From positions 248,001 through 312,000 of the forward strand of contig JACZZP010000004.1 in NCBI GenBank assembly GCA_015183035.1: a stretch of 64,000 nucleotides of DNA, given 5' to 3'. The position numbers and the translations under genes are program-made. Below the pieces are notes generated by a model, which searched no databases, was not told the origin of the DNA, and saw nothing but the letters and a program-made list of their open reading frames with translations. This document shows, piece after piece, positions 4,408-60,929 of the stretch (within the stretch, counting starts at the first letter, position 1; the number at the start of each line of letters is the position of its first letter). Source of the stretch: Meloidogyne chitwoodi. Taxonomy: Eukaryota > Nematoda > Chromadorea > Rhabditida > Meloidogynidae.

Positions 4408-4411
4408 ATTT

Positions 4412-4499: not shown

Positions 4500-4674
4500 T
4501 AAAATTATTAGTTTTTGAGTTTAGTACGGAAAAGAAAACAATCTTTTAAGAATTGCTCTAACATTGCAAAAATTAAATAAACTAATTTTACCTAATAATA
4601 TATAATATTTCAATATATCTTATTCTTATGGCTTAAATAAATGTCGTTAAATGTTGTTTATGTTGTTGTTTAAG

Positions 4675-4909
4675 TATTTTTGAAAACCATTATTACTAGT
4701 GGTTAGTTAGTGTAAACCTTTTTTATTATTACTTGAAAAAGTACTACTACATGATAGTTAAAATACCATTTTTGGTTTGTATTGTTGCTTAAATATCAGG
4801 CTTATTTTTAATTTAAGCGCTATTTACTGAGATATGAAATATACATGCCTCAATTAATTCATGGTTAAAAAGTTAAAATTAGCCAACAAAATGTTGGCTT
4901 ACAAAAATA
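4675..4909. other. Two hairpin cassettes downstream of SL RNA gene 1
   Basis: One variant on the + strand (about 4675-4711) has TATTTTTGAAAACCA, a loop, then TGGTTAG. One typical copy on the - strand (4879-4909) reads ATTAGCCAACA, loop, TGTTGGCTTACAAAAATA on the + strand. Each has a nearby AT-rich block resembling those in the main cluster at 22430-31700. Function unknown. Confidence 0.6.
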
Positions 4910-5272
4910 AAATCAACACTATATGAAGAAGGTCATGTTATGCAATTAATAATGTTACATATAAAATTTAATATTTAAAAAATTTAATATTTTACAAAAA
5001 AATATAAAATATCTAAATACAACTCTTAATCAAACCATTTCAATTTTAACAAAATTAAAACTAAAAAATGTTAAAAAAGGTTAAGGTTGTCTTAGGATTA
5101 GCTTTAATAATGTGTTAAAATTAAAAATTTTAGAACGGATTAATCGACTAAAAAAAGAAAAAAGGTTTTTAAGAATCGTATTTGTTCAGATTTGCCTCAT
5201 AAAATTAAATCATCTAAATCATGACAATTTTTGAGAACATAATTTTACTTAAATTTATTTAATATTTTGCTT

Positions 5273-5569: not shown

Positions 5570-5650
5570 ATGTTCCACCGTTTTGAGATGATAGATTATT
5601 TTTGTAAACCATTATTATTAATGGTTATTTGTCTTACTTTTTTTGAAATA
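5570..5650 (+). other. Hairpin cassette downstream of SL RNA gene 2
   Basis: TATTTTTGTAAACCATT, a short loop, then AATGGTTAT form a hairpin of the family described at 22430-31700. An AT-rich block lies at about 5515-5545. Its position after SL RNA gene 2 mirrors the copy after gene 1, so SL gene plus hairpin may have duplicated together. Confidence 0.55.
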
Positions 5651-6478: not shown

Positions 6479-6633
6479 TAATTAATTAGGTATATTTTAA
6501 TTTAATTGCGGTTTTGTTTGTTTTTCTAAGCCTTTTGTAATGGCTAAATAATTGTTTTAACAATAAAATATTCTAACCTCACGCTCAAAAGGCCTTTAAA
6601 TAAAATTAAAATTTTTGTAATAATAAAAGTTGT

Positions 6634-10539: not shown

Positions 10540-10842
10540 CATATATAATATTTCAAATAAATTTTTAGTTAACATTTTATATTTTATAGCATTACTAATG
10601 AATGCAGCAGGAATCATCTTCGTATTTTTGTAAGCCTTAATATTATTTAATGGCTAAAAGCTAGCTTCAACATCATTTATTTTGTCAAAAATATTTGTGC
10701 AGTGAATATTAAAAAAAAATATTTGAATAATATATAATATTTCAAATAAATATTTTAATTAGTGCTTTTTATTTTTACATTTTGTCTTAATATTATAGAT
10801 GATTTATTATTTTTGTAAGCCATTATTATTAATGGCTAAAAA
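10540..10842 (+). other. Two tandem hairpin cassettes
   Basis: Each has an AT block containing TATATAATATTTCAAATAAA, then copy-specific sequence, then the hairpin. Copy one (about 10622-10659) is TATTTTTGTAAGCC...GGCTAAAA. Copy two (10808-10840) is TATTTTTGTAAGCCATTA...AATGGCTAAA. The block and hairpin are shared; the segment between differs. Confidence 0.65.
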
Positions 10843-11608
10843 ATTTTTTTATCTCCGCGCTCAAAAGGCCTTAACAGAAAAAATACTAAAATAAAAAAAA
10901 TATATATTTTTTTAAATATGATGCAAAAAATTGTGTTAAAATTGTATTATTGATGGAAGTGTAAAAAAAGTGAATTGGGCGCTTAATGAAAGAATTAATT
11001 TTTTAAATCGTTAGAATATGATTAAAAAAAACCATGAAAAAAATAAAAAATTTAAAAAATTAAGGAAAATTAAGGAAAATATAAAAGAAATAAAAAAATT
11101 TTTTATGTGATTAATGAGATTACCGCTTTTTAGGAAAGAAAAAATTAAAAATAGGAACGCGAACATTTTTAAAAATAATAAAATTGACCGTTATGAAAAT
11201 GGCAATTTTGTCAATAAAAAGGAAAAATCTGAGCAGTATAAAGTCAGAAAAATCATAAAAAGATATTTTAGTTAGCCTTATAGCTAAATTTAGTAAAAAA
11301 AACTAATCAAAAAATGTTCGCTAAAAATTCAAATAATTGTTATAGGGAAGGCAAAATAAAGTATTATAAAAAAATATTTAAGAGTAATTAAAAAATAAAA
11401 TTAGAGACAAAGTTCCCTGAAAAAAGTTTAATGAAAGCAAAAGATTTAGCGCTTTTATATTCTGCGCAACACTGATTTAAAAAAATAAAAAATTGGAAGT
11501 GAAAATTTAAATTTAAAATAAATTAAAAAATAAAATTAGAAAATATATAAATGTTAAAAAAATTAAAGAGAATTATCTTAAATTAAAAATTAAAAAAAAC
11601 TTTTTATT

Positions 11609-14600: not shown

Positions 14601-17600
14601 GCTACTTTATAATTCAACTTTTTAATATTTTTCAAATTTTTTAAAAATAATTAAAAAAAATCTGCACATACCAAATAAAGAGGTATATCTTTTCGTTGTA
14701 TGTATTAATTCTCAAGTGACATTGTAATGTATATCTTGGTGTATCACCCAATCTTCTGATTGGAACATCACAAAGTGTAAGTCTTGGAAATATTGGAGAA
14801 TCCTAAAAAAATTAAAAATGAGTCAAAATACATTTTTGTTAAATTGAAAAAATTAAAAAAGATTTTTAAACTTGCCTGCCAATTCTCTCCAGCAAGTAAA
14901 GCATTTAACACATCTAATCCCCACCAACGATAACTACTGCCAATGAAAGAGTTGAGTATAAAAAATTGACCCGAAACATTTAGCAAATAAAGAGCTTTAA
15001 TGAAAACATATAACCACTAAAAAAATTTTAATTTGAGTTAAAATAATTTTAATAATTAAAAAGGCCTACCGAGACATAAGATCCCATACTTTGCCCAAAT
15101 CGGCAACCAGCCATTCGCCTACGGAAATAAGCTTGACGATTGAGAATAGCCTAAAGAAAGAAGAGTTTAGAGAAAATTAAAGAAAAAAGGAAATAAAAAT
15201 ACAACAGAGATGTAAAAAATTAAGAAAAAATGTCAGGCGAATTTTAAAGGTCAAAAAAAGTTGTTATTTGGTAAACAAATATAAATGTATTTAAAACAAA
15301 AAATAAATAAATAAATCAGCCAAAATACTCGAAAAAATCGTTCACTTTTTTAAATTAAAAAATGAAGAATATAAATTTTTAAACCTCAGAAATTTTTTCC
15401 TGCAATTCATGAATCAAGGTTGGCCTTTCAGGGTTTGAAAGCTCAAGAGTTTTTAGTCGAGAAGATTCTTCAATAAATTTGATAAATTCAATACCTTTAA
15501 AATAAATAAAATGGAAATTTTTTTCAAATTTTGCAACATTAAAATTATTTCAAAATAAAAACAATTTAAGCTATAATTAAAAGAGAAGAGGGAATAGTAG
15601 CTTCCATGTGACAACGTAATTTATTTTTGCAAGCCTAATTATAGGCTAATTATGGTGTAGGTTTGGTAATATTCAAGTTTGTGGTCATCCTTTTTAACTT
15701 GGCTTTATTTTCTCTATTTTTTTTGTTTTGGCAAAGTAAGTTTGTTGTATATGAGTGGTGGTCTTTTATAGACAACCTTTAATGGTCTAGTCAACAGACT
15801 ATATAAGCACCATTAAATAACCAGTCCGGATCCAACCAGAGTTAATCCTCAACCAACCTCTACACTTCTACCTATCTTCAACCTTCATTGTCTTTCTCTA
15901 CGTGATAAACTGTTTGCTTGTTGCTCGACTACTCTTCAGTATCTCGGACATCCTTGTTGTACTTAAGTAGGAAACTTAAGATACAACAAAGTTAATCTCA
16001 AAAAGGAGGCAATTTAAAATAAGGGAAAATAGGGAGAGTAGTTAAAAAGGAGGGCTACAAACTGAAAGTTATTTTAATACTCTCCTCTATACTTTTGTCT
16101 TTAATAAAAGTCTTTAATTTTTCTAATTACGTAAAAATACTTAAATTGTTCAAAATAAATTTTATATACACAATTTTTCCCTCTCTTTTGATAAATTTTT
16201 CAGTAAAAAAACTACTAAAAAAATTAAAATAATTTACCACTCTGCTGATTTAATGCATTCCATAGCCAATTTGGCAACATAAAAAGCATTGATTGTAAAA
16301 ACATCATAATAGGCACCCACTAAAAATAATTAAAATGAAAAATATAATTAAATTAAATTTTTTATAAATTTAAATATAAAGAAAAAATAAGTCTGAGGCA
16401 TGGTTACGAAACATTCTGTTATTGTAGTATTTTTGTAAGCAATGTTTTTACCATTGCTAATTTTATATTTATTTTTCAAAGCCAAGAAAAAATTAGCTTT
16501 TTCACAAAAATAATTAATAAATTAAATATAACAAACAACTTTTTGACTTAGAAAACAAATAAAAATTAAAAATAATTTTTATTAATTTTCTTAGCTTGAG
16601 ATAACTATAAAATTAGCAATGTTAAAAACATTGCTTCCAAAAATACTAAGCGGCGTTCATTGGTGAGTATTACCACCTTTATTTTCTTTTTGCTTATGTT
16701 CATAAAAAGTTCAATTTAATTTTATTAAGTACAACTTCTTTTAAAATTTATAAAATACAAGTCTAAAAATTTTTAAAAAAGTTTAAAAATTAAAATAAAC
16801 TTTTTATAAACTTAAGCATAACGAAAAAATAGGTTTAAAGCGTCGTCGTTATTGTAATTCTTCTAGTATTTTTGTAAGCTATTTCATTGCTAAGTTAATA
16901 ATTAATTTTTTAAAAGCCAAAATAAATATTAAAACTCTTTTTTTTATTAATTTTCTTTTAGCTTAAAAAAGTACAAAATTAGCAATTAAAAATTGCTTAC
17001 AAAAATACACGACACACATATCACGTCCACAGGCATTTTAAGTTTTTTTCTATCTGCTTATGTTCATACAAACTTTAATTTTATTTTATTAAGTAAAATA
17101 AATACTCTTTATTTATTTTACAAATTAAAAAAAGAAAATTTAAAATATGAAAAATAAATTTAAATGAACATGAAGGTACTTTTCCTTTATGAGCACAAAT
17201 GTTCGCAAGTTTTATCCGCAAGTAATATTTTTCTCAAAGGTATTATTAAAAAAAATATATGTATGAGCATATTTTCCACAACGATTATAATACATTTTTT
17301 GAATGTATAAGGCAATGGCATTTTAAACTAAATTAAATACTAAAATATAAGAGTTGCGGATAAAACTTGCGGACATTTGTGCTCATAAAGGGAAAGTACC
17401 AACATGAACATAAGAAAAAATAACAGTCTAGGTGTAACTTTTTAAGCCGTTATTTTTGTAAGCAATGTATAATTTTAATTTTATATTTATTTTAAAATCT
17501 TTGAGAAAATAAGCTTTTTCACAAAAATAATTAATAAATTTAATTCAATATCTTTTTGAATTAGAAAATAATAATAAAATTCTATTTTTTATTAATTTAC

Positions 17601-20451
17601 TCATAGCTTGAAAAATAAAATAAAAATTAGCAATTATACATTGCTTGCAAAAATAAACAAAAGCCGCTGAAAAAATATCATTGGCCCATTATTTTCTTTT
17701 TTCTTAAGTTCAAAAAGTTTAATTTTATTTTATTAAGTAAATACTCATTTTTAAAATTTATAAAATATTAGGGTAAAAATATTAAAAAAAAATTTTTTGA
17801 TTTTTAATAATTCTAAAAATTAAAAAAAACAAACATGATAATATCCAAGTTGTCTTTCACGCCTTTCCTTATTTGACCAAGGTATTCCCTCTTCAGGGGC
17901 AACATAATAAGTATTTTTTGACATACAATAATCTAAGGCATATTCACGTTCTTCATCATTAAGCTCTGGACTACGCTAATTTTTATTAAAATTATTAAAA
18001 TATCATAAAATAAATAATTTTTTAAGGATTTAGTGAACAAAAAATATTAAAAAAAATACCAGACAACGCATAGGCTCCATTCCGAAGGCACCAAAGCTAA
18101 AAAAAAAATAAAATAATAAAATTAATTTTTGAATTCGCGTTAAAAAATAATAATTAGGGTCAGGCATATAAGTGTTGTAGTGGATTTACACTACTATAAA
18201 AGAACTATTGTTCTTACTATAAAAGGTTCACTTTGGTCTCCACCTTGTTCATTATTAAATATTGTCCCATTGCCTATTTCCCAAATATTCTTATTACTAT
18301 TTCCCAACTTCATCTTCATTGTTATTTCCTTCAGATAAATATTATTTATAATTGTTTGTATATTCTTCAATATACAACAATAAGATTTATTAGAAGTTAA
18401 ACTATTTTGGTTGAAATTAAGACCAACCTAAGTATTTAGACATTCTTAAACTTTTTTATAATTTATTTAACAGTTTAAATGTCTAAAATAAAACCACCAA
18501 TTTCTTTATTTTTAATTGCTAATTTTCGGAATCTAAAATTAAATAAAACTCTTAATAAATAATATTTCAATTAAATTATTTAATTAATGCTCAATATTGC
18601 TTACAATTTAACTTTGCATCCCCAGAATAAAATTTATTATTTTTGTAAGCCATTATTTTATGGCTAAAATTGGATAAAACTTTTCTATAGCAAATTTTTT
18701 TTTGGAAAACAATTATTAAATATTGCAAAAATATTTATATGATTACCGGAAAATTCCTCCTCGGAAAACTCCTCCCCAAAGATTTTCGGAAAATTCCTCC
18801 CCAGATTTTCGGAAAATTCCTCCTCATCGGAAAATTCCTCCCCAAACAGAATTACCGGAAAATTCCTCACTAAAAATTCCTCTTTTAGCGGAAAATTCCT
18901 CCCCAAATAAAAAATTATTTTAAAAATATTTGAATAAAATAATTTCATTTTACCAAAGTTTATTCGATTAATTTATTTTTTATGAAATAATAAAGATCGA
19001 TCAACCAATTGGTCCAATTGCCAATTCGGTCAAATCTCTTACAACATTGGTCCCTGCAAACTTGGACCTATTGGTGGTGTTCTATTACTTCTCCATTTTA
19101 GAGCCCATGGCCAGCTGGTTTTCGTGCAAACTTGGACCTATTGGGAGTGTTTTATTACTTTTTCATTTAAGTGATTGGACCAATTGGTTGATTGATCTTT
19201 CGGGTTCGATCTTTTGGGTTGACCCAATCTTTATTATTTCATAAAAAATAAATTAATCGAATAAACTTTGGTAAAATGAAATTATTTTATTCAAATATTT
19301 TTAAAATAATTTTTTATTTGGGGAGGAATTTTCCGCTAAAAGAGGAATTTTTAGTGAGGAATTTTCCGGTAATTCTGGTTGGGGAGCAATTTTCCGATGA
19401 GGAGGAATTTTCCGAAAATCTGGGGAGGAGTTTTCCGAAAATCTTCGGGGAGGAGTTTTCCGAGGAGGAATTTTCCGGTCACCATTTATATTGCCCTAAT
19501 TAAGTATTATAGGAACACACAAAACTAACATATTTGCTGAGATCATCATAACAAAAAACATTAAAAACATGGGTACAATATGGCAGTTTAACCGGTCAAT
19601 GATATCAGAAAAATGTGCTTTTGACCTTTTGAACCAATCCCAAAGAGTTTTTCCTAAAAATTAAAAAAAAATAAAATTTTAAATAATTAAAAAACGAAAG
19701 AGAAAATAAGACAAATTTTTTAAGGAAGAATAATATAAAAAATATATAAAGGTTAAAATCAACCTCCAAAAATAGAGTATTTTTAATCTAAAATTTGCAA
19801 CATATATATAATATTATTTAAAATATTACATTTAACACACTTGAGTTTGAGCAAAAATTGTCTATATTTTTTACTATTTCGTATATTTTTGGGAGTCGAT
19901 TAGTATCGACTAAAAATTAAAAAAGTCAAATCCTAAACCAGATAGTGACTAATTTCCGACTAAAAATTTACTTTTAATAAATCGAGAAAAAACAAAAGTA
20001 AGCACAAATTTTTTTTTAAATTTGCAAAATAAATATTATTTCAAATTTTAAAACATTTCAGTTTCCAAAAAAAGAGTTCAGTGACTTTTTCTTGCCAAAT
20101 TAATTATATTTTTGTAAGTCAATTACGATTGACTAAAAAATCGAATTTTCAGTTCAATATTTAATTATTAATGGGTAAAAAAAATAAAAAATTATAAATC
20201 ATAATAAAATTAAATAAAATTAAAAAAATTGTTTACCCATAAACGCCTGGGTCTGTCCAAAAAACGGCAAGTTGTGTACACCAATCATCTTGTTCCTAAA
20301 AATAAAATAAAAATTATTATATTTTAAGAAAAAAATAATTTTTCTTAAAAAATGTTTGTCGTGTTTTAAAAAATTTAAAAAATATTCAAAAAATAATTTT
20401 AAAATTTTTTCTAAAATTTTGATAGACTTACTCCTCAAAATAATTATCCAT
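11609..20451 (-). CDS. Innexin (gap-junction channel protein), common exons
   Basis: Four-transmembrane innexin forming invertebrate gap junctions or hemichannels. Exons in order: 20432-20451 (MDNYFEE, possible start), 20237-20295 (NKMIGVHNLPFFGQTQAFM), 19530-19653 (KTLWDWFKRSKAHF, then TM1). Then about 18060-18098 (FGAFGMEPMRCL), 17832-17976 (YCMSKNTYYV) and 16240-16313 (WVPIMMFLQ, TM2), which with the previous exon gives the YYHW form of the YYQW signature. Then 15388-15497, 15070-15150, 14875-15016 (TM3), 14672-14803 (RLTLCD, YTLQCHLRIN), 14236-14333 (TM4). Then 13525-13616, 13381-13475 (DGILLFWFIESHAGPLIARE) and three hydrophilic tail exons ending NGRAAIKEV at stop 11609-11611. Both extracellular cysteine pairs are present. 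Introns carry solo LTRs and MITEs. Which innexin paralog it is cannot be told here. Confidence 0.92.
11850..12340. other. Innexin intron with one hairpin
   Basis: AT-rich intron. One hairpin of the common family lies at about 12155-12192 (TATTTTTGGAAGCTGATT, loop, ATCAGCTAATTTT). Nothing else is recognised. Confidence 0.5.
12645..12700. mobile_element. Merlin-like TIR remnant in innexin intron
   Basis: Facing AGTCCGCAAATTTTG and TTGCGGACAAAACTTGC words match the ends of the Merlin-like elements at 17175-17400 and 58438-58943. The body is almost gone. Confidence 0.5.
13660..14060. mobile_element. Solo LTR with a nested MITE
   Basis: Starts TGTTGTACTGG and ends AAGATACAACA, flanked by the 5-bp duplication ATTAT (13655-13659 and 14061-14065). 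It matches the LTRs at 18173-18379 and 27151-27355, with TATAAAAGGTTCAC as a likely TATA region. It is longer because a 187-bp MITE sits inside (13795-13981). It lies in the intron between the TM4 exon and the next innexin exon. Confidence 0.9.
13795..13981. mobile_element. MITE nested in the solo LTR
   Basis: Inverted arms share GGTTTACCGCAGGGCTATAA-type sequence. It is flanked by TTCCCAACT (13786-13794) and TTCTCAACT (13982-13990), a 9-bp duplication with one change. A relative lies at 20580-20780. Confidence 0.85.
14345..14560 (-). other. Two hairpins in innexin intron
   Basis: Two copies read TTGCTGATAAAATCAGCTTC and TTGCTGACAAAATCAGCTTC on the + strand, each followed by CAAAAATAGA. They share a GCTGAT/ATCAGC stem but have different flanks. 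This is the GGAAG variant of the hairpin family. Confidence 0.6.
15743..15988. mobile_element. Solo LTR of a second family
   Basis: 246 bp beginning TGTTGTATATGAGTGG and ending AAGATACAACA, with a perfect 5-bp duplication AAGTT on both sides (15738-15742, 15989-15993). Internal sequence differs from the other three LTRs, but the terminal inverted TGTTGTAT / ATACAACA is the same. It lies in an innexin intron. Confidence 0.9.
16340..17790. repeat. Three related palindromic units, each with two facing hairpins
   Basis: Units at about 16370-16720, 16800-17085 and 17400-17725 each open with a GAAAAAATAA-like word and close with TTATTTTCTTTTT or CTTATGTTCATA-like sequence. Inside each, a + strand hairpin (TATTTTTGTAAGCAAT) faces a - strand one (ATTGCTT(A/C)CAAAAATA): 16429/16612, 16866/16978, 17454/17625. 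A Merlin-like MITE separates units two and three. All lie in one innexin intron. Confidence 0.7.
17175..17400. mobile_element. Merlin-like MITE
   Basis: 226 bp with long inverted ends starting GGTACTTTTCCTTTATG and ending CATAAAGGGAAAGTACC, flanked by a perfect 8-bp duplication AACATGAA (17167-17174, 17401-17408). Its ends match the element at 58438-58943 that carries a Merlin-type transposase fragment. Confidence 0.92.
18173..18379. mobile_element. Solo LTR
   Basis: 207 bp from TGTTGTAGTGG to CAATATACAACA with a perfect 5-bp duplication ATAAG (18168-18172, 18380-18384). Nearly identical to 27151-27355 and to 13660-14060 without its nested MITE. In an innexin intron. Confidence 0.93.
18560..18672 (+). 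other. Hairpin cassette in innexin intron
   Basis: An AT block (ATTATTTAATTAATG near 18575) is followed by copy-specific sequence with CTTTGCATCCCCAG. The hairpin TATTTTTGTAAGCCATTA / TATGGCTAAAA follows at 18638-18668. Confidence 0.6.
18741..19483. mobile_element. Large fold-back element
   Basis: 743 bp with arms of about 250 bp, flanked by an 8-bp duplication ATTTATAT (18733-18740, 19484-19491). The arms are built of repeated GGAAAATTCCTCC words. The loop holds two copies of a CAAACTTGGACCTATTGG repeat shared with other elements here. Mirror-image open frames beginning MKLFYSNIFKI on both strands follow from the palindrome and are not genes. Confidence 0.9.
19880..20140 (+). other. Two hairpins in innexin intron
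   Basis: 19883-19914 is TATTTTTGGGAGTCGAT, loop, ATCGACTAAAAA; 20107-20136 is TATTTTTGTAAGTCAATT, loop, GATTGACTAAAAA. Stems differ, but both keep the flanking strings of the hairpin family. Confidence 0.6.
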
Positions 20452-20780: not shown

Positions 20781-21029
20781 AATATGGCGCTATTTTAAAA
20801 AACAAATTTTTATTTTTTTGAAACAATATTTGCTATCAAAAGATGAATTAAAACGCGCAAATCAGGGAAATAACAGGAATATTAAATTTTAAAAATTAAA
20901 TTATTTCGTCCTTTTCTACAAAGCCCTCAATATCCGTTTTTTCTCAAAATGGTCAAATCCCTTAAATTTCTCAAATCGCCAGTAATACTAGTGTCCAAGT
21001 ATTATTTGTGTAATATTCATAGGTTTAAA

Positions 21030-21400
21030 ACTAAAATTAGCCAACAATGTTGACTTGCAAAAATACTTTATCATGAAAAAGCACGAAAAACCCAATTTTA
21101 AACTATTAATCATGTAATAAATAAAAGATAATATTTGAAAAATTTAATATTTTTCAAAAATATTAAATTAAAAATGCTTAAATCCCCTTATAAAAATATA
21201 TGGGCATTATCCGTGTACATGTTCGTGGTTTAAGTAAAATTTGGCCAAAAAACGTTGGCGCTTACAAAAATAAATGTATGAAAAAAATAAGACATTTAAA
21301 AAAAAAATCATTACATATATAAAACTTAATATTCGAAAATTTAATATTTTGCAAGAATCTAACCTTCTAACCAACTTTTAAATTTTAACAAAAATGAACA
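21030..21400 (-). other. Two hairpin cassettes
   Basis: Hairpins at 21036-21065 (TTAGCCAACA, TGTTGACTTGC) and about 21242-21271 (GGCCAAAAAACGTTGG, CGCTTACAAAAATA). Each is followed on the + strand by copy-specific sequence and then an AT block with ATTTAATATTTT. They lie 5' of the innexin MDNYFEE exon. Confidence 0.55.
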
Positions 21401-22278: not shown

Positions 22279-23871
22279 TATTGTGGTCAAAAATATTAAA
22301 AAAAAAGGACTAGAGGAGAATAGAAATTATCAAATTTAAAAAATGTATTTAAATTTTAAGCTAAAATTTAAAAAAAAATTGAAAAATTAAAAATTTAATT
22401 AAAAATTTTTTCAATTTATTCAAAGCAAAGCTTTGAATTGCAAAAATATTTACACGTCCGTGGAATAACTATAATACAATTTCGTGAATTAAGTAATAAT
22501 TTAATAAAAAACAATTGAAATAATTTATATTAAACAAATTAAATAATAAAAATAAAATAAAAAATAAATTTGCAATTTTGAATATCTCCTTTAATTGAGC
22601 CAGGCTTATCTAAGTTTTTTTGGAAAATAAAATAAATTTTAATTTTTAAAAAGATAAAATTAAAATTTATAAAAAGCTATACAAGAGGTTAAGCTTGTAA
22701 TAATTTTTAGTCATAGCATTAGCTTGACTTACAAAAATACAATAACTCGATTGGATCAAATTCAATGTAGCTTTAAAAAAATTAAAATATATGCAACTTA
22801 GTGAAATAAATAACAAATACGTTGCAACTTAGATCGTAATAATTCGAAAGAAAAACCTCGAAATTTCGGTTTTAGAAATCGAAATTTCGTCTCAGCCCTG
22901 TAATGTCTCAAGACAACAACCTGCGTTTTGATAAAGGTATATGATGAGGGAAAGAAAAAAGAAAGAAAAAAAATCAAAATTTAACAATAGAAATAACTCA
23001 CTTAAAAAATAAATTTCGAAATGCGCAATAAAAAATGAGGTAAAGATTTATGAATTTTACCAAAAATAGGTATAAAAAAAGGGAAAAAATCATTTTTTCC
23101 CTTCTTTTATTAAAAGACGCAAACAAATAAGGGAATAGAAAAGAAGAAATGTGTTGAAATAACTCTGACATAATAAATATATTAATTTTAATTGTTTATT
23201 TACTTTTTATCTAATATTATTGTAAATATTTTTATGGATAACAAAAGTAAATAAATAAAATAAAAATGAAAGAAAAAATAAAAAATAACCCCAAAATTAT
23301 TAAAAATTTTAAACATTTTGTTTGAAAAAAAACTTTTTTAGCCAGCATTGCTGGCTTACAAAAATATTCGTCATCAACTGAAGAGAAATAACACACGTTT
23401 TAAAATTAATTAAATAATAAATGCAATTAAATTTTAAAAATTAAATATTTTGAAAATCACAAATTATCAAATTTGAACAAATTAAATATTTTTAATTTAA
23501 CAGAAAAATAAAAAATAAATAAATTTTATAAAAATTTTAATTAAATACATTACTCCTCTAAAATATTTAGCAAAAAATTTTTTATTAAATTTTTAAAAAT
23601 AAAAAAACTTTTTTAACCAGCCTTGCTGGCCTACAAAAATATAATTGAATCTATAGGAGTTATAAGAACCAAAGTTTTTCAAATTAATCTAATAATATAT
23701 ATACAATTTAATTTAAAAATTAAATATTTTACAAATCAGGAAGTATTAAGAGAGTGAAAAAATTAAAAAAAAATTTTTTTTAATTTTATTAACTGATAAA
23801 TAGAATTTTTTAAACGCAGGATGATGAGAATTACTCAACTAATATAAAACAAATAAAATATAACCAGCAAA

Positions 23872-25359
23872 GGTATAGCGAAACTTGCGGACCGAACTTT
23901 GCGGACGCCCGCTAACGTTTACAAAAAAATTAGTTTATCAGCCTTTTCATAAGGCCAAAGGGTAAAATAATTTATTTAACAAGTTTGTAGCATTGTATTA
24001 ATTCTATATTTAAGTTTTGGATCAGAAATTTGAGTCCAGAAGCTTTGGTCCGGAAGTTTCGGCCTACCACAACGAACTCGATTTATAGATAAAACAAAAA
24101 ATAACAAAAAAGAAATAAAAATTTTAAAATTTTATTTTTCCGTAAAAAACACTGTATGGTTTATTTGTCGAGCAAAAAAATTAAATTATAAAATTAGTCA
24201 ATATAAGTTGACTTACAAAAATACAAGCCTTCGAAACAAAAAACAAGTTTTAAATAAATAAACAGTTAATAACATATAATTTAAAATTTCAAAAATTAAA
24301 TATTTTGCAAAAAAAAACAAAAGAACTCAACATTAAACAGAAAATTAATACAAAAATTTTACTTAATATAAAGTAATTTATTTTTCTTAAAGGTTTAAGC
24401 ATAATTAGCCAAGCATTTAGCCGGCTTACAAAAATAATTTGTGTCTATTGTCTTATGGAAGAATTTGAATAAATTTAATAATTAATTAAATGATATATAT
24501 ACTTTATATTTGAAATATTATATATGTTGCAATTCAAAAAATAAATTAGTTGAATAAAAATTAAAAAAAATAAATATAAATTTGAAAAAAATAGTCAAAA
24601 ATAAAATCGAAGTTCAGCTGACAAAAATTTTAAATAAAATCGAAGAGAACAAAAATACACAGCGCACGTGTGTTACGCTCACAAAATAAATATGTATATG
24701 GAAATAAGTGCTGTTATTATGAATGAATGAAACATTTAAACAACCAAAAATCCTCTCTACATTTTTGTTTTGCAACGAAAAAACTGGTTAAAATGGATTA
24801 AAAACCGCAAAAAATAAAAATCAATAATTCTTCAAAGTATTTGAAAAAATCAAAATACAAAAAAAAAACATTTTAAAAAATTGGGTTAAATTCCATAGAC
24901 ACAAAAATGAATAAAATAATTTCTTGCGAATAAATATTTTACCCTCCCATCTTAACGAGTACCAATAAAGTTAATATTTTTCAATTTTTAATAAAAATTT
25001 TGCTAGAAAATTTTTATTAAATTAAAAAAAAAACTTATAGCCAGCAATGCTGGCTTACAAAAATATACATAAGCTGCCTTGAATACAACACATAATTTGA
25101 AAAATTAATTAAATAATATATACAATTTAATTTGAAAAATTAAATATTTTGAAAATCACTAATTAAAAAGGCAGGCCAAACTTTTTGGACCGAATCTTTT
25201 GGACGCAAACTTCTGATCCAAAACTTGAATATATATATTATTTAATATTATGCCATAAAATAATTAAATAAATTATTTTACCAGTGAATACTTCGAAAAG
25301 GCAGATAAACTTTTTTTTGTTTGTAAACTTTTGTGGGCGTCCGCAAGTTTCGCTCTACC
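23872..25359. repeat. Pair of long inverted arms 1.1 kb apart
   Basis: The left arm begins GGTATAGCGAAACTTGCGGA; the right arm ends CCGCAAGTTTCGCTCTACC. Both contain GGACGC, AAACTTTTTGGACCG / GGTCCGGAAG-like and TTTTGGATCAG / CTGATCCAAAA blocks. The arms are about 190 bp each. No target duplication is visible. Three or more hairpin cassettes lie between the arms. It may be a large transposon that lost its coding region, or two separate ends. Confidence 0.6.
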
Positions 25360-27150
25360 ATTAAAAAGGGTGAGAAAGTTAATTTTTTTTAATTTAAGAA
25401 GATAATACAAAGAATTGAAAAAATATTGCAAAAAAAATTTTTTTTTTAATCGTTCGAGATTAAAAGATTTAAGCAGCAATAACTTTTTTTGACATGTAAA
25501 TTAATTGACAAAATGTCTGTTTTTTTTTAATTTTTAGCTTAGAATTAAGCTTACAAAAATATAATTTTGGAGCAAGAAAACACAAGCCGTAAAAATAAAT
25601 ACATTTAAAATTAATTATAATTAAAATATTTTATATTTATTAACAAATTTAATTTTATCATGAACATTGGTCATAGGGTTCAGCCTCGTCCCCGACATTT
25701 TTAGAGGTTTTCCCCGACCCGATCCCCGACATAATGCCCTCAACGATCCCCGTCCCATGACATTTCCACCCCAATAGGTGCACTCTAATTGGTCACATTA
25801 TTTATCTAAAGAGTTGTAAAAAATTAGCCAAACAAACAGTTGGCTTACAAAAATAGAGACAATTAAAGAAATACATACAGGACATGAAATTTGACAAATA
25901 ATTAAATTATATAAAAAATAAATTTTAAAAAATATTTATTTTGCAAAAAAAAATAAAAAATTTTTTTATAATTTTTCAAATTTAAAAATTATGCAAAAGT
26001 GTTGTTAAAAATAAAAAAATTTATTTAAATAATTTTTAAATTTTATTCTTTGCCTTTACCATTTAACAGTGAAAAACATTAAATTAGTCAACACATTGTG
26101 TTGGCTTTCAAAAATAAAAGAAACAAGAGAAGAAAAAATATGTTTTTCCAAACTTAATTAAATAATATAAATAATTTAATATTTCAAAAATTATATATTT
26201 TGCACAATCAAAAAAGTGAAAAATTAAAAAAAATTTATGCAAAAAAATGCAAAATTTTCTCAATTTGTCTATTAAATTTAACTCAAATAGGGGAGACAGA
26301 GAACTAAAATAATAACAACTTTTTCCTTTATTTAAATACACAAAAAATAATTGAAAAAAACAGGTTTTTTGATCAAAAAAAAATTATTTTTCTAGACACA
26401 CTTAAATAATTTTTATTTTTTAAAAATTATTTTTTCCTTAAAAATCTTTTTATTTTCTTTGAAAACATCCCCCAACAAATATTCTTTCTCTAAAAAATTT
26501 TAAAAATTATAATTGAAAAATATGCGCTCACGCGACCCTTTTTCCCAACAAAAAAATTAAATAAATACACAAAAAAAAAAAGGCAACAAAACAAGACCAT
26601 CCAGAAAAAAAATAAAAGACAAAATTAAAAAGACAAAATTGTTAAAAAATTGTGTAATTAAAAAATAAAATTATTAAAAAATTTCGATAATAATTATTAT
26701 TATTGAAATTTTTGACAAGTACATAATAATTAAATATTTTCTTCAAAAGTGAAACTATCAAAAAAATTTAAAAATAAAATAATTTAAAATATTTTAATAA
26801 ATATTTGGGAAAAAAAAATTAAAAAATTTTTTTTAATTAAAAATATTAGCCAGAGTGGCTTACAAAAATAATTTAAGAAAGAAAAGCAGGCACTCACACA
26901 ACAGTCTTAAAATTAATAAAATAATAATACAATTTAAATTAAAAAATTAAATATTTTGTATTTAAAGAAAAATAAAAAAATATCAAAAAAAGTGTAATTT
27001 AAAAAAAAAGTTTTTTTTAATTTAATTCAATTATTTAAAAAAAATCTCGGGATAACAAAAAATAATTTAAATATTTTAAATTAATTAAAAATATATATTA
27101 TTTAAATAAAATTGGGAAAAAAAATTTTTCAAGTCAAACCTAAAGAATAT

Positions 27151-27355
27151 TGTTGTAGTGGATTTACACTACTATAAAAGAACTATTGTTCTTACTATAA
27201 AAGGTTCACTTTGGTCTCCACTTTGTTCATTATTTATTGTCCTTAATTAAATATTGTCCCATTGCTATTCCCAAATATTCCCACTTCATCTTCATTGTTA
27301 TTTCCTTCGGATAAATATTATTTATAATTGTTTGTATATTTGTCAATATACAACA
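27151..27355. mobile_element. Solo LTR
   Basis: 205 bp from TGTTGTAGTGG to CAATATACAACA with a perfect 5-bp duplication AATAT (27146-27150, 27356-27360). Very close to the copy at 18173-18379. It is inside the hairpin array, immediately next to the cassette at 27364. Confidence 0.93.
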
Positions 27356-27887
27356 AATATATATTAGCCAAGCATTCGCTGGCTTACAAAAATACACGAC
27401 AGATTCAATAGAATACCGAGAAGCAAAATTTAAAATTATTTAAAATAATATATCCATTTTAATTTCAAAAATTAAATATTTTTGAAAATATTTGGAAAAA
27501 TTTTTTTTCAAATTAAAAGGCTTAGTTTTTTTAAAATTTTCTAATAAAAAAAATTATTTCAGATGTCAAAAAAAAATCAAAGAATCTATGTGAATAAAAA
27601 AATAATTTTAAATTTTAACACTTAATAATTAGCATTATTTACAAAAGTGTAAAATTAGCCAATCTATTGGCCTACAAAAATAGAATACGTCAAAATATAA
27701 GAAGTTAAGAAGCAATTTTTACATTTGATCAAATAATATATTATACAATTTAAATAGAAAAAAATAATATTTTGCAAATTAAAATAATTTTTAATTTTTC
27801 AAGTAAATAGGTGTAGTCCAATAAAATGTTAAAAAATATAATTAAGAGCCATTTTTCTATTTTTAATAATTATATGAGAAAAAATTT

Positions 27888-28559
27888 GGCACTATATGAA
27901 AGGAAGGCCACCATCCAATTTTTTCTATATTCTTAAAAAATGGGTAATTTTTATATGTCATTCGAAAGAGCTCGTCGAGCTGAGTCAAATGACATAAAAA
28001 CTAGTCCTCAGAAACAAATTTGGGCCGAGTTACAGGTCGCCGAAAATTGAAAAACCATAGGGTAGACCAAGCTCTTCTAAGTGATTACCGCGGCTGCTCC
28101 TAAATTATTTTCACTGAATTAATTATTTTGTTGTAATTATAGCTGTAGATTAACGCATGTACCAAAAAGCCAACGAGAGATGGGCGCCCAAACGAAGAAG
28201 TCATAAAACACTCCCAATAGGTCCAAGTTTGGCGTGCTTCAAGCAACTTCGATCTTTCATAACTTTGTTCATAATCGTTCAATCAAACTGATTTTGGTTT
28301 CATTCGATAGGTCTTGAAGAGCTCTTTCGGATGAGCTATCATACTCATTTTCGAATTTTTCAGCCCAAAAATGAGCTTACTCCACCCTATGGTTTTTCAA
28401 TTTTCGGGGACCTGTGACTCGGCCCAAAGTTGTTTCCGAGGACTAGTTTTTATGTCATTTGACTCAGCTCGACGAGCTCTTTCGAATGACATATAAAAAT
28501 TACCCATTTTTTAAGAATATAGAAAAAATTGGATGGTGGCCTTCCTTTCATATAGAGTC
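27888..28559. mobile_element. Fold-back element with 8-bp target duplication
   Basis: 672 bp with arms of about 175 bp (CTATATGAAAGGAAGGCCAC... inverted at the right end), flanked by AAAAATTT (27880-27887, 28560-28567). The centre has the ACACTCCCAATAGGTCC repeat and, at about 28085-28100, ATTACCGCGGCTGCT, a string also found in small-subunit rRNA. Confidence 0.9.
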
Positions 28560-30758
28560 AAAAATTTAAAATTGTATAGCTAAGCATTTTGCTAGCTTAC
28601 AAAAATATATTCTAGAACCTGGGGAATTCGAAACATAGGTACATTTTAAAAATTTAGTTAAATTATACAGTTTAATTTTAAAAAATAAATATTTTTCAAA
28701 AATTAAGGAACACAAAAAGTGAACAAACACTGATAAAATTTACTTAAAAAAATGCTACAAAATTAAAAAAAAAAATATTTAAAGTTTAAGCAAAATTAGC
28801 CAAGCATTTGCTGGCTTACAAAAATACAACTAGGGATAAATTACAATTATTAACATTTTAATTTTAATAAAATTTATATCTATTTTATGTTTAGAAATTA
28901 TATATTTTTTAATTCAAGAATAAATTTATTTGTATAAATATATTAAAAAAAAATAAAAATTTAATAAAAATATGACAGAAATACACAAAGTCGTTAAAAT
29001 AATGTCCAAATTACTGACAAAAATTTAAAATAAAAATTTAAAAAAGAAATAAATTAAAATTCACACATTTTTAAAAATTATGCAAAAATTAAAAATAATT
29101 AGCCAATAAATTCAAAAATTAATAAAAATCAATAAAATTAAAAAAAATAAAATTTTAAAAATTTACTCTGAAACAAAATTTAACGCATTTAAAGCTTTTA
29201 AAAAATAAAAATGTGAACAAATAAATTTATTAACAAACAAATAAAACTCTAAATTAAAAAATTTTTTTTTAATTTTCTGTAAATTCGAATGAATTTTTTA
29301 GAATTCGAACTAATTGATAACAAGATTATATATCAAAAAAAAAAATATCGGCCAGATATTAATTATTAATTATTGTCTCAAATGCTTTTTTCCAGTAACG
29401 AATAAATGCTGAAAAAACAAATTTTTTCAAAAATTAATCGGTACTGTAATAAAAGACTACAGTAATTAAATAATTTGACCAACTTAGAGATTAGATTGAT
29501 TCTAGTAGCTCTTTTTAATTTTCAGTGAACAATAATTATACATAACTTTATAGAGAGGATGGCATATCTATTATTCTTAGTAGGATAAATTAAAAAATAC
29601 GATACTCTGCCAAAATACGATAAAATAAAATATAGGTAAGTAATATTTTTACAAATATGAATTAATTTAAATTTAATAATATTCATTTTTTTGTTATTTT
29701 ATTAAAATTTTAGCCAACAAAGCATGTGTTGGCTTACAAAAATAATTACACGGATACTAATGAACAATTCAGAAATGATACAAATTTAAAAATTAATTAA
29801 ATTTTAAATTTCAAAAATTAAATATTTTGTAAATAAAAGTGGACAAAAATTAAATTTAAAAAAAAATTTTTTTTTAATTATAACAGACAGAAAAATAAAA
29901 AAAAAATTTTTTACTATAAAAATCAAATTTTTCAGTCAATAAATTAAATAATTGATTGAGTTTTTAATTAAGAGTAAAAAAGGAATATTAAAAATTATGA
30001 ATATATTATCTCAAAAAATTAAATAAAATACCCAAATATTTAATTAATAAATAAATAATTAAAAAAAAATTTTTTAAACTCAATTGCCTTTCTCAAATTT
30101 ATCAAAAATAGAAAATAAAAAAATCTTAAATAAAATTTAAAGTTTCGGACGAATGTCATATCATTCGAAAGAGCTTGAAAAGCTGAATCGAACAAGCTAA
30201 GAAAGAGTAACATTTTTCGAGTAAAATTCGAAATAAAATTTTTTGAATATTTTAAAATTTAGTGGAAAAAGTATCACAGTGTTTTGTTTTTTCTGTAGCT
30301 TTACAAACGAGAATAATAAATTTTAACCTTTTTTAGAGAAAGTATAATCTCTTTAGAAAAAAGGTTAAAAAACACAAAAAAGTCTAAAATTAGCCAAGCA
30401 TTGCTGGCTTACAAAAATATGACCGAGTACCCTTAAAAAAATTAAATTAGAAAGATTAATTTAATAATAATATCTCACAAATATTTCAAAAATTAAATAT
30501 TATGCAAAATAAAATAAAAATTTGTTATTTATGTAGAAAAGTTGAAACCTTTAGGTATTCCCTGTTAATACCACAAATATAAAAATTTTAAAACACGACA
30601 CACAAGTATATCGGAATAAAAAATATAAAATTGATTTTTTAAAATTTTAACCGAAATTTCTCAAATAAAAATTAGAATTTTATTTAAAAATTAAGAAATT
30701 AGTTTTCACGTTATTAACAACTAAACACCAATAATTTACCCTTACCCATTAAATTTAC

Positions 30759-30999
30759 TAATTAAATTATAATAAAAAACCCACAAATTGCCAACAGGTT
30801 CCCAATCCTTGATTTTCGGCTTCCAACCGACCCCACCACTACTTGCGATATGCAGATTTGTTGAAAATCCTCCCCCACCACTTGGGCGAGAATTAGAGTT
30901 GTTACCAGAAGAAGAACTTCCTTTGTTGTTATTTCCGCTAAAACTAACGTTTTTGGTTGAAAAACCGCCGCCTCCACTATTTTCTGAAATTTAAAAAAT
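30759..30999 (-). CDS. Glycine/serine-rich alternative 5' exon, probably of the innexin
   Basis: After a TTTCAG acceptor the exon reads NSGGGGFSTKNVSFSG, a Ser/Asn/Gly run, then SSGGVGWKPKIKDWEPVGNL, and stops at a GTGGGT donor with two bases over. That phase fits the innexin exon at 20295, giving ...VGNL then NKMIGV, as with the MFNRKQQ exon. Its own first base pair fits the exon at about 33330-33446. It could instead belong to a separate gene. Confidence 0.55.
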
Positions 31000-31919
31000 T
31001 TGTAAAAATTAAAAAAAAATAAAAAATTTTTTTTTAATTTAAAGAGAACCGTTTAAGCGAAGTATTCGTGAAATATCTTTAAATTTGTTCAAAAATAAAT
31101 GTTAATAAAAAATAAATCTGTGAAAGCATTTTATGACTAAAAAAAGTAAAAAATGGAAAAAATATTTTTGAAAATAATTGAAATTTATTTTTTGTAAATT
31201 GGGGGACAATAATAAATTATTCTTTTAAAGAGATTTTAAAAGTTTAAAAAATTAGCCAACAGAAAATGGTGGCTTACAAAAATAAAATCAATCAAGGAAA
31301 AAATAACCATTTAAACAGATTAATCAAATAAAATATAAAATAATATTTCAAAAATTAACTATTTTGCAACAAAAGAGCACAAAAAAAGATAAATTTTATT
31401 AAAAAAAAAAAAAATTTTATAAAATCTTTAAGAAATTTATACTTTTAAAAAGTTTCAGAAAAATTAGCCTAGCATTTTTGCTGGCCTACAAAAATAAAAG
31501 ATGAAAGAAACAGCAATTACTGAGAAAATTAATTAAAAAATATGTACATCTTATATTTGAAATATTATATACTGTTGTAATTCAAAAATTGGTAATTTAA
31601 AAATTTGTGAAATAAAATTTATTTTATACAAAAGATGCTTAAAATTAGCCAAATATGTGTCTTACAAAAATAATTAACAAAAGACAAGAAAATTGTTTTT
31701 AAAAAGTTGCAAAAATTCTGCATTTTAAGAGAAAAATAATATAATATAGGAATTTTATTAGGCAAAATAGTTGACCTTTTGTGAAGCAAATATAAATAAA
31801 ATAATTTTAGTATTCAAAAAAAATTAAAAAAAAAAATTTTTTTAATTAAAAAATGTGGACTTAAAGAATTTTTGAAAAAAAAAAGAAAAGTAGCCACGGC
31901 GACCCAAAATAATAAAATA

Positions 31920-32130: not shown

Positions 32131-32865
32131 GTCGTGAAAAAAGAAAAAAAGAAGAGAAAAAAAATAAATTTAAGGCTTCACGAAAACAAAAAATACATTT
32201 TTTGGACACTAAAAGGAATTAAATATGACTAAAATTGAATAGAATTATAAAGGCAAAAAAGTATATATACAAAAAATGATGAAATCACGTGTTTCAAAAA
32301 TCTTTTTTCGTATAAAAAACAAATTTTTGACAAAATATACCTAAATATCTAAAGAAAATTATATGGAAATTTTAAATTTAGGGGGGAGTGGAGAAAATAA
32401 ATTAGCGGATTGATATAAATATTTTTAACAAAACTTTAATTTTTTAGGACATTTTACTAATTTGCATATTTCTAATGTGTTTTTAACTTTAATTTTTTTT
32501 TAAAAAGTTGATTTATTTTTCTAATTTATTCTTTCTAATTCTTAATGCTTTTTGTCTGTTTTTTTACTTTCTTATCCCAAAATAGAACACTGACCTTAAA
32601 AAATAATCAAATAATTTTGTTTTTACTATTTTTAAAGTGTGTGGGCTGTATATAATTTATTTTCTTCTTTTATAAACTTTGGTCTTTAATAAAGCCATTT
32701 GAATTCTCAAGGAAAGAAAAAAGATGTGCCAGATTTTAGTTAAAAATTGTATTAAAAGTTAGAGACATTTAAAAGCATAGGCTTAGAGATTTGGCTTTCT
32801 GGGCTCTAATTTTCGAATTTATTTTTTAATGAAATTATTAAAAATTATTTTATTAGTTAAAGCAA

Positions 32866-33196
32866 AAAGCTTAACTTCCAAAAAATAATTCAAGCAACAA
32901 CAATAATATAAAATAGAATAAAATATAAAACATGTACTAAAATATAAATAAAAAATTATATATTAATCAGTCCAATTTTTTAGGAAAACTTAAAAAATTT
33001 TAATGACCTTTTTAAACAAAATTAGCAGAAAAATGTATAAAAGACCCTACATGAAAATTTTCTAATTCTAAAATAATATAATTAAGCAAAATGCTTAACT
33101 TCCAAAAATAATGCAACACGCAACGAAGAAACCAAAATAGTACAAAATATAATAACATATTAAAAAACATAAATAAAAAATTATATATTAGTCAGC
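32866..33196 (-). other. Two tandem hairpin cassettes (GGAAG variant)
   Basis: About 32868-32890 and 33083-33106 read AAGCAAAAAGCTTAACTTCC and AAGCAAAATGCTTAACTTCC on the + strand, then AAAAATA. Each is followed by a different 45-50 nt segment, then the shared block AATAAAAAATTATATATTA and GTCAG or ATCAG. Confidence 0.65.
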
Positions 33197-34139: not shown

Positions 34140-34640
34140 AAAAGTTTTTTAAATTTAGTCAAAATCAATGATTTGACTTACAAAAATACTTAACAAAAAA
34201 CAACAGGACGAAATTGTATTTAAACAAGTGTACACATATAACAAAATAATAAAAAATAGTATATGATGTTATTTACTTTATGATTTTTGATTCTCAGGGC
34301 CTCTGACCAGAATTGTGCGCGTTTGAAGATTTTTTATAAAATCATTTCAAATCGAAAGGATCGATCTTTCCAATGTATTATATTGCCAATATGAAATGTG
34401 GTCCGTATTAGAACGGGGAAATCTGAATAAAAAAAAAGGGTTGGAGACTAAAGAAATTAAAAAAGAGGTAGCGAGGCTGTTTATTATTTTAGTGGTAAAA
34501 TTAAATTACAACGTATTCATTTATTATTATTATTTTGGTTTTATACTTTAATGTTTTCTAATAATCGATTGATTAATCTCATGTATTTCTTAATATTTTT
34601 GTAAGTCAAAGCATCGCTTTTGACTAACTTTTATGATTAA
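34140..34640. other. Two facing hairpins
   Basis: About 34158-34188 on the - strand (GTCAAAATCAATGATTTGAC then TTACAAAAATA) and about 34590-34622 on the + strand (TATTTTTGTAAGTCAAAGC, loop, GCTTTTGACTAA). Same family, different stems. The rest of 34000-35180 is AT-rich with an A-tract at about 34725-34740. Confidence 0.55.
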
Positions 34641-35179: not shown

Positions 35180-35680
35180 TGTTCAGAATTTTAAAATCTT
35201 TATAAAATATATTAAAAATAAAATTATTAAAAATAAAAATATATAAAATAAATGGGGTTTATGATGTATTTTGTTCCAGTTCTGTTATTTTTTGGAAGCA
35301 ATGTTTATCATTGCTATAATTTAAAATATTTTAAAACGTTTTTATGTTTAGATTTTAATTTTTTTTATAAAATATATTAAAAAGTAAAAAAAAAATTATT
35401 AAAAATAAAGAAAAAGGATTAAGATAGGTTCTTATGTATAACATTGGTTATTTTTGGAAGCAATGGCATCATTGCTAAAAAATTTTATCCTGGCGTTTTT
35501 CTAATTTTTTTAAAAAAAAAAGTTATTTATATTTTAGATTTTAAAATTTCTCTATAAAATATATTAAAAATCAGAAAAAAATATTAAAAAATAAAGAAAA
35601 ATAAATCAGTTAAATTTTCTTGAAATCTTTATGTTATTTTTTGGAAGCAATATTTCATTGCTAAAATTTATTTTTACATT
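35180..35680 (+). other. Three tandem hairpin cassettes with different inserts
   Basis: Hairpins at about 35287, 35449 and 35629 all have TATTTTTGGAAGCAAT-like starts (one extra T in two copies) and ATTGCTA closes. Each is preceded by a near-identical block (TATAAAATATATTAAAAA, then AATAAAG in two of them). Between block and hairpin lie about 33 nt that differ completely: segments with GTTTATGATG, AAGATAGGTTC and CAGTTAAATTTTC. Period is about 165-180 bp. This is the clearest case of conserved frame with replaced insert. Confidence 0.75.
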
Positions 35681-36849: not shown

Positions 36850-36905
36850 TTTTTTGATTTCTAAGTATTTTTGCAAGTCAAAGCTTTTGCTTTAGACTAA
36901 TTTAT
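36850..36905 (+). other. Hairpin of the common family
   Basis: TATTTTTGCAAGTCAAAGC, loop, GCTTTAGACTAA. Another copy with a longer loop lies at about 37702-37742 (TATTTTTGTAAGTCATTC ... GAATTGACTATT). Confidence 0.5.
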
Positions 36906-37030
36906 TGGTGATTTTTTAAGCTTGCTTTAAAAAAATAAATTTTTCTTTAATTTTCTGGTGTGGAATTTTTAGAGATTTTAAACGTTATTTAATATTAGAA
37001 AGGGCAAAAGTGATGTATGCAAAATAATTA

Positions 37031-37606: not shown

Positions 37607-38316
37607 AAATAATTACTTAATATTAATTTTATTAAATTATTTAAATTATATGTATAATTTAAAGTTTGTTCCTAATTGTAGAATATTTGTTATAATTTGA
37701 TTTATTTTTGTAAGTCATTCTTATTGTTGGGAATTGACTATTAAATTAAATAAATGTGTTGAAATCTATTATAAATTAAGAAATTCAAGCCAGAGGAACT
37801 TTAGAAATTTTGCTTTTATATTTTTTCAATTTTTTAATTTGGAAAAAAATTATTTTTGTTTGATAAAATTCACTCGAGAAAACTAAATAAAAGTAAGGAA
37901 AATAATAAATTAAAAAATATGTAAAGTTTTATAACATTTCATATTTACATAACACATATAACTAGCATTCATGATAAAAATGAAATAAAATATTTGTAAG
38001 GTAATTAAATGTTGAAATAATAAAAATAAACATAAAATAACTTGCAGGAGAAAATTAATATATCAAAAGTCGGAAGGATAAAAAGAAGAAAAATTCCTAA
38101 TTACTCCAGAGTTGACGTGTTATCAAATTTATTTAGATATTTTTATTATAGATCCACAAAAAGATGGGAAAAAACATTAAAAAAATAATTTGATAAAACT
38201 GGACCTGTGGTTTGTCCAAGTTAAAAATAGAAGAAAATTTTGTTTGGAAATATACAAAAATTTGTATATTAATTAAAGAAAAGAAGATTTGTTTTTGTAA
38301 AATACATAAAACATTG

Positions 38317-60926: not shown

Positions 60927-60929
60927 AAG

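Follow-up and report, generated by a model that had tools for sequence, protein, structure and literature searches.

A family of putative snRNA-type genes with a hypervariable 5' segment, clustered in the genome of Meloidogyne chitwoodi

The window analysed here, a 64-kb stretch of the genome of the root-knot nematode Meloidogyne chitwoodi (C25:248001-312000; assembly of 47,477,280 bp in 30 contigs), carries a family of short hairpins, each preceded by an Sm-like site. In support of the species, a 22-nt HSP90 sequence employed in PMC9994647 as a probe specific for M. chitwoodi has one exact match in this genome (control: 0). On balance, the hairpins can be regarded as the 3' ends of several hundred putative genes of the small nuclear RNA (snRNA) type, which would specify Sm-bound RNAs of ~60 nt with exchangeable guides. 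This reading draws on sequence, i.e. on the anatomy of the repeated unit, the covariation of its hairpin, its clustering, a 3' layout like that of U5 snRNA, and a ~24-nt segment that is unrelated between recent duplicates in which the promoter, one outside flank and the hairpin are kept. A first-pass annotation of the window had pointed out the hairpins; it did not notice the two parts in which most of the interest lies, the upstream element and the hypervariable segment of 24 nt. In what follows, C numbers designate contigs and L numbers other loci of the assembly.

The covarying hairpin and its genomic spread

A covariance model (R1) built from 44 window copies was run unfiltered on the window and yields 55 matches at E <= 0.024, including the 44 training copies; the next match has an E value of 0.14. 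This agrees with the 45-60 copies announced by the first-pass annotation. In the stretch 22430-31700, where it counted 22, a concentration of copies is indeed present but the figure is lower, since 20 of the 55 lie inside or touch this stretch, every one of them on the minus strand. Exact matches to the tag TATTTTTG[TG]AAG number 37 in the window (plus strand 12, minus strand 25). This tag, described as invariant, most plausibly consists of the Sm-like site and the base of the 3' hairpin. A terminal hairpin after the Sm site, which is a feature of Sm-class snRNA genes, is found in the family. The tag was also considered as a splice donor, a possibility ruled out because the base that follows the G of the site is not fixed (T 123, G 30, C 20 and A 3 among 176 copies).

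The pairing of the stem is kept while its sequence changes. In an alignment of the 44 window copies (A1, 8 stem pairs), 87.7% of the cells pair versus 68.6% after shuffling, and the covariation score is 0.577 versus 0.223, neither value being reached by any of 500 shuffles; when the partner position is slid, pairing amounts to only 13-41%. Two coarser measures are not decisive, as both-side changes in 7 of the 8 pairs are equalled by 94 of 500 shuffles and the 22 further pair types by 24 of 500. An alignment-free arm-swap test was applied to 141 copies, i.e. 143 model matches minus two devoid of the TTTTG anchor (window:6517+ and L062:8962-); 77 of them make all 7 pairs, compared with a mean of 15.5 and a maximum of 28 after swapping, and these 77 display 47 distinct arm combinations. 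Likewise, 81 of the 122 copies located outside the window, none of which was used to train R1, are fully paired over 7 pairs with their own arm, whereas 500 runs of swaps give a mean of 15.2 and never more than 26. The stems listed by the first-pass annotation are present, for example GCCAGC/GCTGGC in the copy 23328-, GTCGAT/ATCGAC in 19882+ and GCTTA/TAAGC in 25524-.

Covariation, which the first-pass annotation had proposed to test statistically, is strong by pairing and by score against shuffles and also holds in the arm swaps, and the diversity of fully paired arms differs from the few subfamilies with fixed stems expected from miniature inverted-repeat transposable elements (MITEs). These data support selection on the fold, rather than the decay of one stem. 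Between the two bearers of the fold that had been offered, RNA is favoured over extruded DNA, because the fold comes after an Sm-like site, in the same arrangement as at the U5 3' end, and because an upstream element is present whose best match also lies at about -64 in U2, U5 and SL1 genes.

The family extends well beyond the window. The pattern TATTTTTGNAAGN{12,30}GCTAA has 276 matches in the genome and none for the reversed control, and the pattern TATTTTTGNAAGTN{10,30}ACTAA has 111 versus 6 for the control. Most of the hairpin-pattern matches listed lie on C25:0.12-0.87 Mb and C26:1.7-2.6 Mb. Among the 100 listed for the first pattern, which extend no further than C25, 26 are on C1, C12 and the near-identical C16/C17; among the 100 listed for the second, 91 are on C25 or C26 and the others on C1, C7 and C12. 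The sequence TATTTTTGTAAGCC has 101 genome matches (control: 2), and 95 of the 100 listed among these lie on C25:0.137-0.865 Mb or C26:2.03-2.58 Mb. As both strict patterns together recover 28 of the 55 window copies, the genome probably harbours ~700-800 copies. Five 10-kb pieces picked for their density contain 7 to 20 copies apiece.

The full set used for segment comparisons comprises 176 copies. Four matches in L005 were excluded from the counts because contigs C16 and C17 are near-identical. These contigs are 153 kb each, with gaps as their sole difference over the 3 kb compared, and are likely an assembly duplicate or two haplotypes; their segments consequently agree across contigs.

The Rfam scan of the window gave no match at gathering scores, and none at E <= 1 for 10-32 kb, and ARAGORN found no tRNA. 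The first-pass annotation had stated that this signature is not known from any nematode family; searches of the open-licence PubMed Central (PMC) literature yielded no such family.

Anatomy of the unit and likeness to snRNA genes

The unit consists, in order, of an upstream element, an A/T-rich spacer, a unique GC-richer segment of ~24 nt, AUUUUUG, the hairpin and CTAA. The upstream element was recovered by an unsupervised expectation-maximization search as the motif TT[GA]C[AT][AT]AATAT..AAT[AT]TTT, which 50 of 56 window copies carry between -82 and -96. The distance from its start to the Sm-like site has a median of 87 bp (range 77-103) over 141 copies in which the interval -108 to -72 was scanned. 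Counted from this start in the same 141 copies, GC content is 4-19% at +5 to +52, 23-24% at +53 to +61 and 33-36% at +62 to +85; the rise from ~14% to 33% between +50 and +62 falls near the +64 start implied by U2. Overall, GC content reaches 34% in the last ~24 nt before the site, whereas the spacer has 13% and the flanks 19-21%. The Sm-like site is TATTTTTG in 165 of the 176 copies, followed mostly by N-A-A-G, the hairpin and CTAA. Placing the RNA start at element start +64, as in U2, leads to a predicted RNA of ~60 nt, i.e. a segment of ~24 nt, a site of 8 nt and a hairpin of ~26 nt.

A first exemplar, on the minus strand, illustrates this organisation. Its promoter-like element, which resembles a proximal sequence element, was identified by the motif search at 23432..23455 and starts 89 bp before the Sm-like site; the hypervariable ~24-nt 5' segment, a predicted guide, occupies 23367..23390, with a predicted RNA start at about 23390. 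The Sm-like site TATTTTTG lies at 23359..23366, and TA, the hairpin AGCCAGC-AAT-GCTGGCT supported by covariation and AA at 23338..23358. In the copy L066:5358-, the promoter is replaced by a GTGGGACGAATTGAGG tandem repeat and the Sm-like site and hairpin are intact; this is probably a dead copy.

The U1, U2, U4, U5 and spliced leader SL1 genes of this genome were located. The 3' end of U5 snRNA consists of AUUUUUGGAAGC, a hairpin and UAAA, and resembles the ending of the family. All four U5 genes end with AATTTTTGGAAGC-stem-loop-stem-GTAAA, which written out gives AATTTTTGGAAGCGTTTC...GAAACGCGTAAAATC; the G form of the family, ATTTTTGGAAGC...GCTAAATTT, has the same 3' layout, although its segment holds no U5 body. 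The other 3' ends, each followed by a hairpin, read AATTTTTGGAC in U4, AATTTTTGAG in U1 and AATTTTGGAA in SL1. The SL1 genes have the usual long form. One of the six exact matches to the SL1 leader (L060, C25:405098-405121) lies inside the cluster, ~1 kb from a copy of the family.

The matrix of the upstream element was scanned over the 150 bp upstream of 25 snRNA and SL1 genes, leaving out four of the ten U2 matches (L037-L040) and two of the nine U1 matches (L052 and L053) that seem truncated or diverged; in another scan, the best site of L037, L038 and L039 was at -83, -90 and -36, respectively. The class-mean score is maximal at -64 for U2 (6 genes), -63 for U5 (4 genes) and -65 for SL1 (6 genes).

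Several known Sm RNAs share part of this architecture. U7 snRNA resembles the predicted RNA by its ~60 nt, the single-stranded guide position at its 5' end, its Sm-type site and its 3' hairpin. However, it carries one histone-directed sequence, whereas the family has hundreds of loci with unrelated 5' ends and a spliceosomal-type AUUUUUG (UAUUUUUG in 165 of 176 copies) instead of the AAUUUGUCU given for U7 in PMC7026596. Membership of U7 is ruled out by this site and by the lack of one conserved 5' end. The SmY RNAs are likewise nematode Sm RNAs that act outside the spliceosome but, as described in PMC11229312, they have a conserved first stem-loop before the Sm site, where the family has its unique segment; these unique segments, together with the absence of any Rfam match at E <= 1 in 10-32 kb, rule out membership.

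The hypervariable segment and its possible explanations

Pairwise comparison of the 176 segments revealed no pair at least 0.85 identical, and no segment shared or recombined between copies was found among them; the segment differs in every copy examined, near-identical duplicates included. In the 33 pairs whose promoters are at least 0.85 identical, segment identity is 0.549 (random pairs 0.561), compared with 0.723 for the upstream flank (random 0.601) and 0.817 for the hairpin (random 0.650). Of the 260 pairs with a promoter identity of at least 0.78, 12 also have an outside flank at 0.80 or more and were taken as recent duplicates. These 12 pairs show identities of 0.873 in the best outside flank, 0.872 in the promoter and 0.934 in the Sm-like site plus hairpin, and of 0.530 (highest 0.636) in the segment, random segments giving 0.556. 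Between such duplicates, promoters remain 81-93% identical while the 24-nt block is unrecognisable. The 12 pairs fall into five groups but only four independent sets, because two groups are the two halves of the same head-to-head blocks of L065. The latter (L065:3592-3887, 4388-4680 and 7171-7466) are three ~300-bp head-to-head unit pairs, alike between their hairpins and unalike outside.

The pair formed by window:45760- and L021:1499+ combines an upstream flank identity of 0.93 with a segment identity of 0.50 (opposite flank 0.67). In the window, this second exemplar has its Sm-like site at 45792..45799 (-) and its hypervariable segment at 45800..45823 (-); the segment of L021 (C25:336.0 kb), its recent duplicate, bears no relation to it. 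Their homology spans the end of the open reading frame (ORF) 45864-46178 (-) and ~35 bp beyond the hairpin, and the sole unrelated stretch runs from the predicted start to the Sm-like site. By eye, this ORF resembles a receptor exon; the window and L021 share a recent segmental duplication carrying both its end and a copy of the family. Comparable values characterise L066:4930+/5082- (upstream flank 0.89, segment 0.55, opposite flank 0.64) and L073:829+/220+ (downstream flank 0.84, segment 0.50, opposite flank 0.69). A profile of five pairs taken from the other groups, not including L073, starts 60 bp above the element with identities of 0.87-1.00, which hold as far as element +41. Identity is then 0.77-0.87 up to about +65 and 0.55 over the final 20 nt, returns to 0.88-1.00 between Sm +0 and +39, and is 0.50-0.73 beyond. 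The makeup of the segments is also non-random, as TA is depleted (z -5.3) and TCC occurs in 60 of the 176 (33 expected).

If these units are snRNA-type genes, they would be transcribed by RNA polymerase II through the snRNA-activating protein complex (SNAPc), as snRNA genes are, from a start ~24 nt before the Sm-like site. The Sm ring would bind AUUUUUG to form an Sm-bound ribonucleoprotein, whose 24-nt front end would probably act as an interchangeable guide that base-pairs to other RNAs. The guide role is proposed because the architecture matches both that of U7, in which the target is set by the same place, and that of the loci of PIWI-interacting RNAs (piRNAs), with their snRNA-derived promoters. 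According to PMC7026596, swapping 19 nt at the 5' end of U7 retargets the RNA, and according to PMC6436959, nematode piRNA promoters derive from snRNA promoters and the loci are clustered or intronic. Diversifying selection could underlie the rapid turnover of the segment, and so could a process dedicated to its replacement; the data favour neither.

Various results weigh against this interpretation. The Sm-like site departs from the consensus purine-AU4-6G-purine (as stated in PMC6362198), with U before A in 165 of the 176 copies and U after G in 123. The promoter match is positional only: scores of single genes are mostly non-significant (p 0.01 to 0.98), the maxima lie elsewhere for U1 (at -42, where -62 ranks second) and for U4 (at -48, where -64 ranks third), and the mean of the five classes peaks at -56, -64 being second. 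Furthermore, R1 matches U5 weakly (18.4 bits, E 0.52) and does not recognise snRNA tails well. Given these scores and the poor performance of R1 on snRNA tails, the likeness to snRNA genes is one of layout and position, not of sequence identity. In addition, the outside flank of the L065 pairs is the promoter of the partner unit and may be under selection, so that only three of the 12 recent pairs have a neutral-looking flank. The searches for targets point the same way. Two segments searched genome-wide with <=3 mismatches gave only self-matches (one match for the reversed control in one search), a number too small to exclude targets. Antisense matches of at least 13 nt were found for 22 of the 91 evaluable segments (0.33 Mb searched), compared with 15% of shuffled segments and 23% in the reversed control; the other 85 segments matched at full length, which was taken as their own loci, and were hence not evaluable. 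The lean towards antisense to coding sequence (107 of 176 segments) is mostly due to base composition, as shuffled segments show most of the effect. A search with 60 of 141 segments joined as one DNA query was uninformative, since its four matches were all own sources and the other 56 sources were missed.

The alternatives account for part of these observations. The units could be piRNA-like precursor loci, in which RNA polymerase II would pause or terminate at TATTTTTG and the hairpin, and a worm-specific Argonaute would take up the ~24-nt RNA. An element near the snRNA promoter position, unique short segments and clustering indeed correspond to the organisation of nematode piRNA (21U-RNA) genes, as described in PMC6436959; however, the Sm-like site and covarying hairpin after the segment distinguish the family from these genes, and the identity to the Sm site and hairpin layout of U5, with selection on the hairpin, points to a retained RNA structure. 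Furthermore, the lineage is reported to lack piRNAs and PRG-1, the latter being not found in clade IV nematodes according to PMC4323106 and absent from M. incognita and M. hapla according to PMC5934874, the M. chitwoodi genome itself not having been searched for PRG-1. We find this explanation unlikely. It is quite unlikely, too, that the family represents a mobile element of the non-autonomous kind, similar to MITEs or Helitrons and bounded by hairpins, whose likeness to promoters and Sm sites would be coincidental and whose segments would be passengers. This origin is kept as a rival because homology ends near the hairpin in most duplicates: the duplicated L065 blocks end at their hairpins, the homology of the L021 and L066 pairs is gradually lost some 18-35 bp beyond the hairpin (~18 bp in the L066 unit), and that of the five profiled pairs is low beyond Sm +40. 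By contrast, homology extends beyond the hairpin in L073, that of the first L066 unit continues for ~250 bp up to the following unit, the numerous fully paired arm combinations leave no fixed end sequence, and a passenger between conserved parts should be about equally conserved, which the segment is not.

That the genes are of snRNA type but their 5' segment is unconstrained, the particle relying solely on its Sm site and hairpin (as an Sm sink, for instance) while the segment drifts, appears improbable. It would fit the lack of targets in the searches made and the fact that all segments differ, but drift should not outrun the neutral-looking flanks of the L021, L066 and L073 pairs, and the composition of the segments, with their high GC content and depletion in TA, is unlike that of the local DNA. 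Very improbable, lastly, are hypervariable spliced-leader RNAs such as those of the cyst nematodes Heterodera and Globodera. A spliced-leader exon is terminated by a GU donor, and an intron-like part separates it from the Sm site. In the family, the segment abuts the Sm-like site and GT has no fixed place (5-23 of 176 copies at any position from -36 to -2, 45 at -1), which rules out membership; moreover, the SL1 genes of this genome are conventional. The likeness lies in the variable 5' end of an Sm-type RNA, PMC6362198 describing hypervariable ~22-nt 5' ends with an Sm site and hairpins in these related plant parasites.

The snRNA-type reading invites a broader and more doubtful proposal. After the loss of Piwi, root-knot nematodes might have evolved a second, independent small-RNA guide system based on small nuclear ribonucleoproteins, i.e. 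several hundred U7-like genes confined to dedicated parts of the genome. Their 24-nt guide cassette, set between an invariable promoter and an invariable Sm-hairpin tail, would be exchanged wholesale, yielding a heritable and constantly renewed repertoire. Such a system would bear on how genomes are policed in nematodes devoid of Piwi, and would be piRNA-like in a lineage of worms from which piRNAs are reported to be missing. If expressed, the units would show snRNA machinery converted for a second time into a system with many guides, by means of another type of RNA, and would be a parallel in nature to the U7 guide RNAs engineered by man. With its variable part enclosed by constant ones, the unit also makes what replaces or drives the 24-nt block so fast a question that can be tested by sequencing alone.

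Copies and neighbouring features of the window

All copies given here were identified as R1 matches, and each consists of an Sm-like site and a hairpin unless stated otherwise. On the plus strand, they lie at 4673..4716, 5595..5638, 10621..10667, 10806..10849, 12163..12203, 15620..15659, 16426..16470, 16865..16915 (weak stem), 18636..18677, 19882..19923, 20105..20146, 34592..34637, 35285..35327, 35447..35488, 35634..35674, 36864..36910, 37701..37751 and 62731..62773; a degenerate copy at 6517..6557, without the TTTTG anchor, is the one from the window dropped from later counts. On the minus strand, copies below position 22430 in the numbering of the window are found at 4869..4911, 11896..11936, 13222..13264, 14354..14394, 14509..14549, 16603..16647, 16969..17009, 17617..17657, 21027..21067 and 21231..21274 (weak). 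The dense stretch contains those at 22406..22450, 22698..22741, 23328..23368 (exemplar 1), 23603..23643, 24184..24225, 24395..24438, 25027..25067, 25524..25563, 25814..25857, 26074..26118, 26836..26872, 27354..27396, 27645..27684, 28566..28609, 28786..28828, 29700..29746, 30380..30421, 31243..31286, 31454..31498 and 31635..31674 (weak stem). The last ones on this strand are at 32843..32888, 33068..33112, 34145..34190, 45435..45476, 45760..45801 (exemplar 2) and 46254..46302.

The vicinity of an innexin gene, noted in the first-pass annotation, is borne out by an exon at 16227-16319 (-) that matches Pfam PF00876 (28.3 bits, cut-off 25). Because this exon is on the minus strand, the region 16.4-31.7 kb lies upstream of it. 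Further innexin exons are likely, by eye, at about 15.0 and 13.4 kb.

Among the copies, a palindromic element with long inverted arms (GAAAGAGCTCGTCGAGCTGAGTCAAATGACAT) occupies ~27870-28560. An array of ~1.7 kb at 59087-60928 consists of a short unit that is open in several frames, with SQRHL/TQVSL repeats. Two ORFs, at 50406-50645 and 56305-56526 (-), share a VIW(V/I)(I/V)RH(S/A)(Q/E)R stretch reminiscent of histidine phosphatases.

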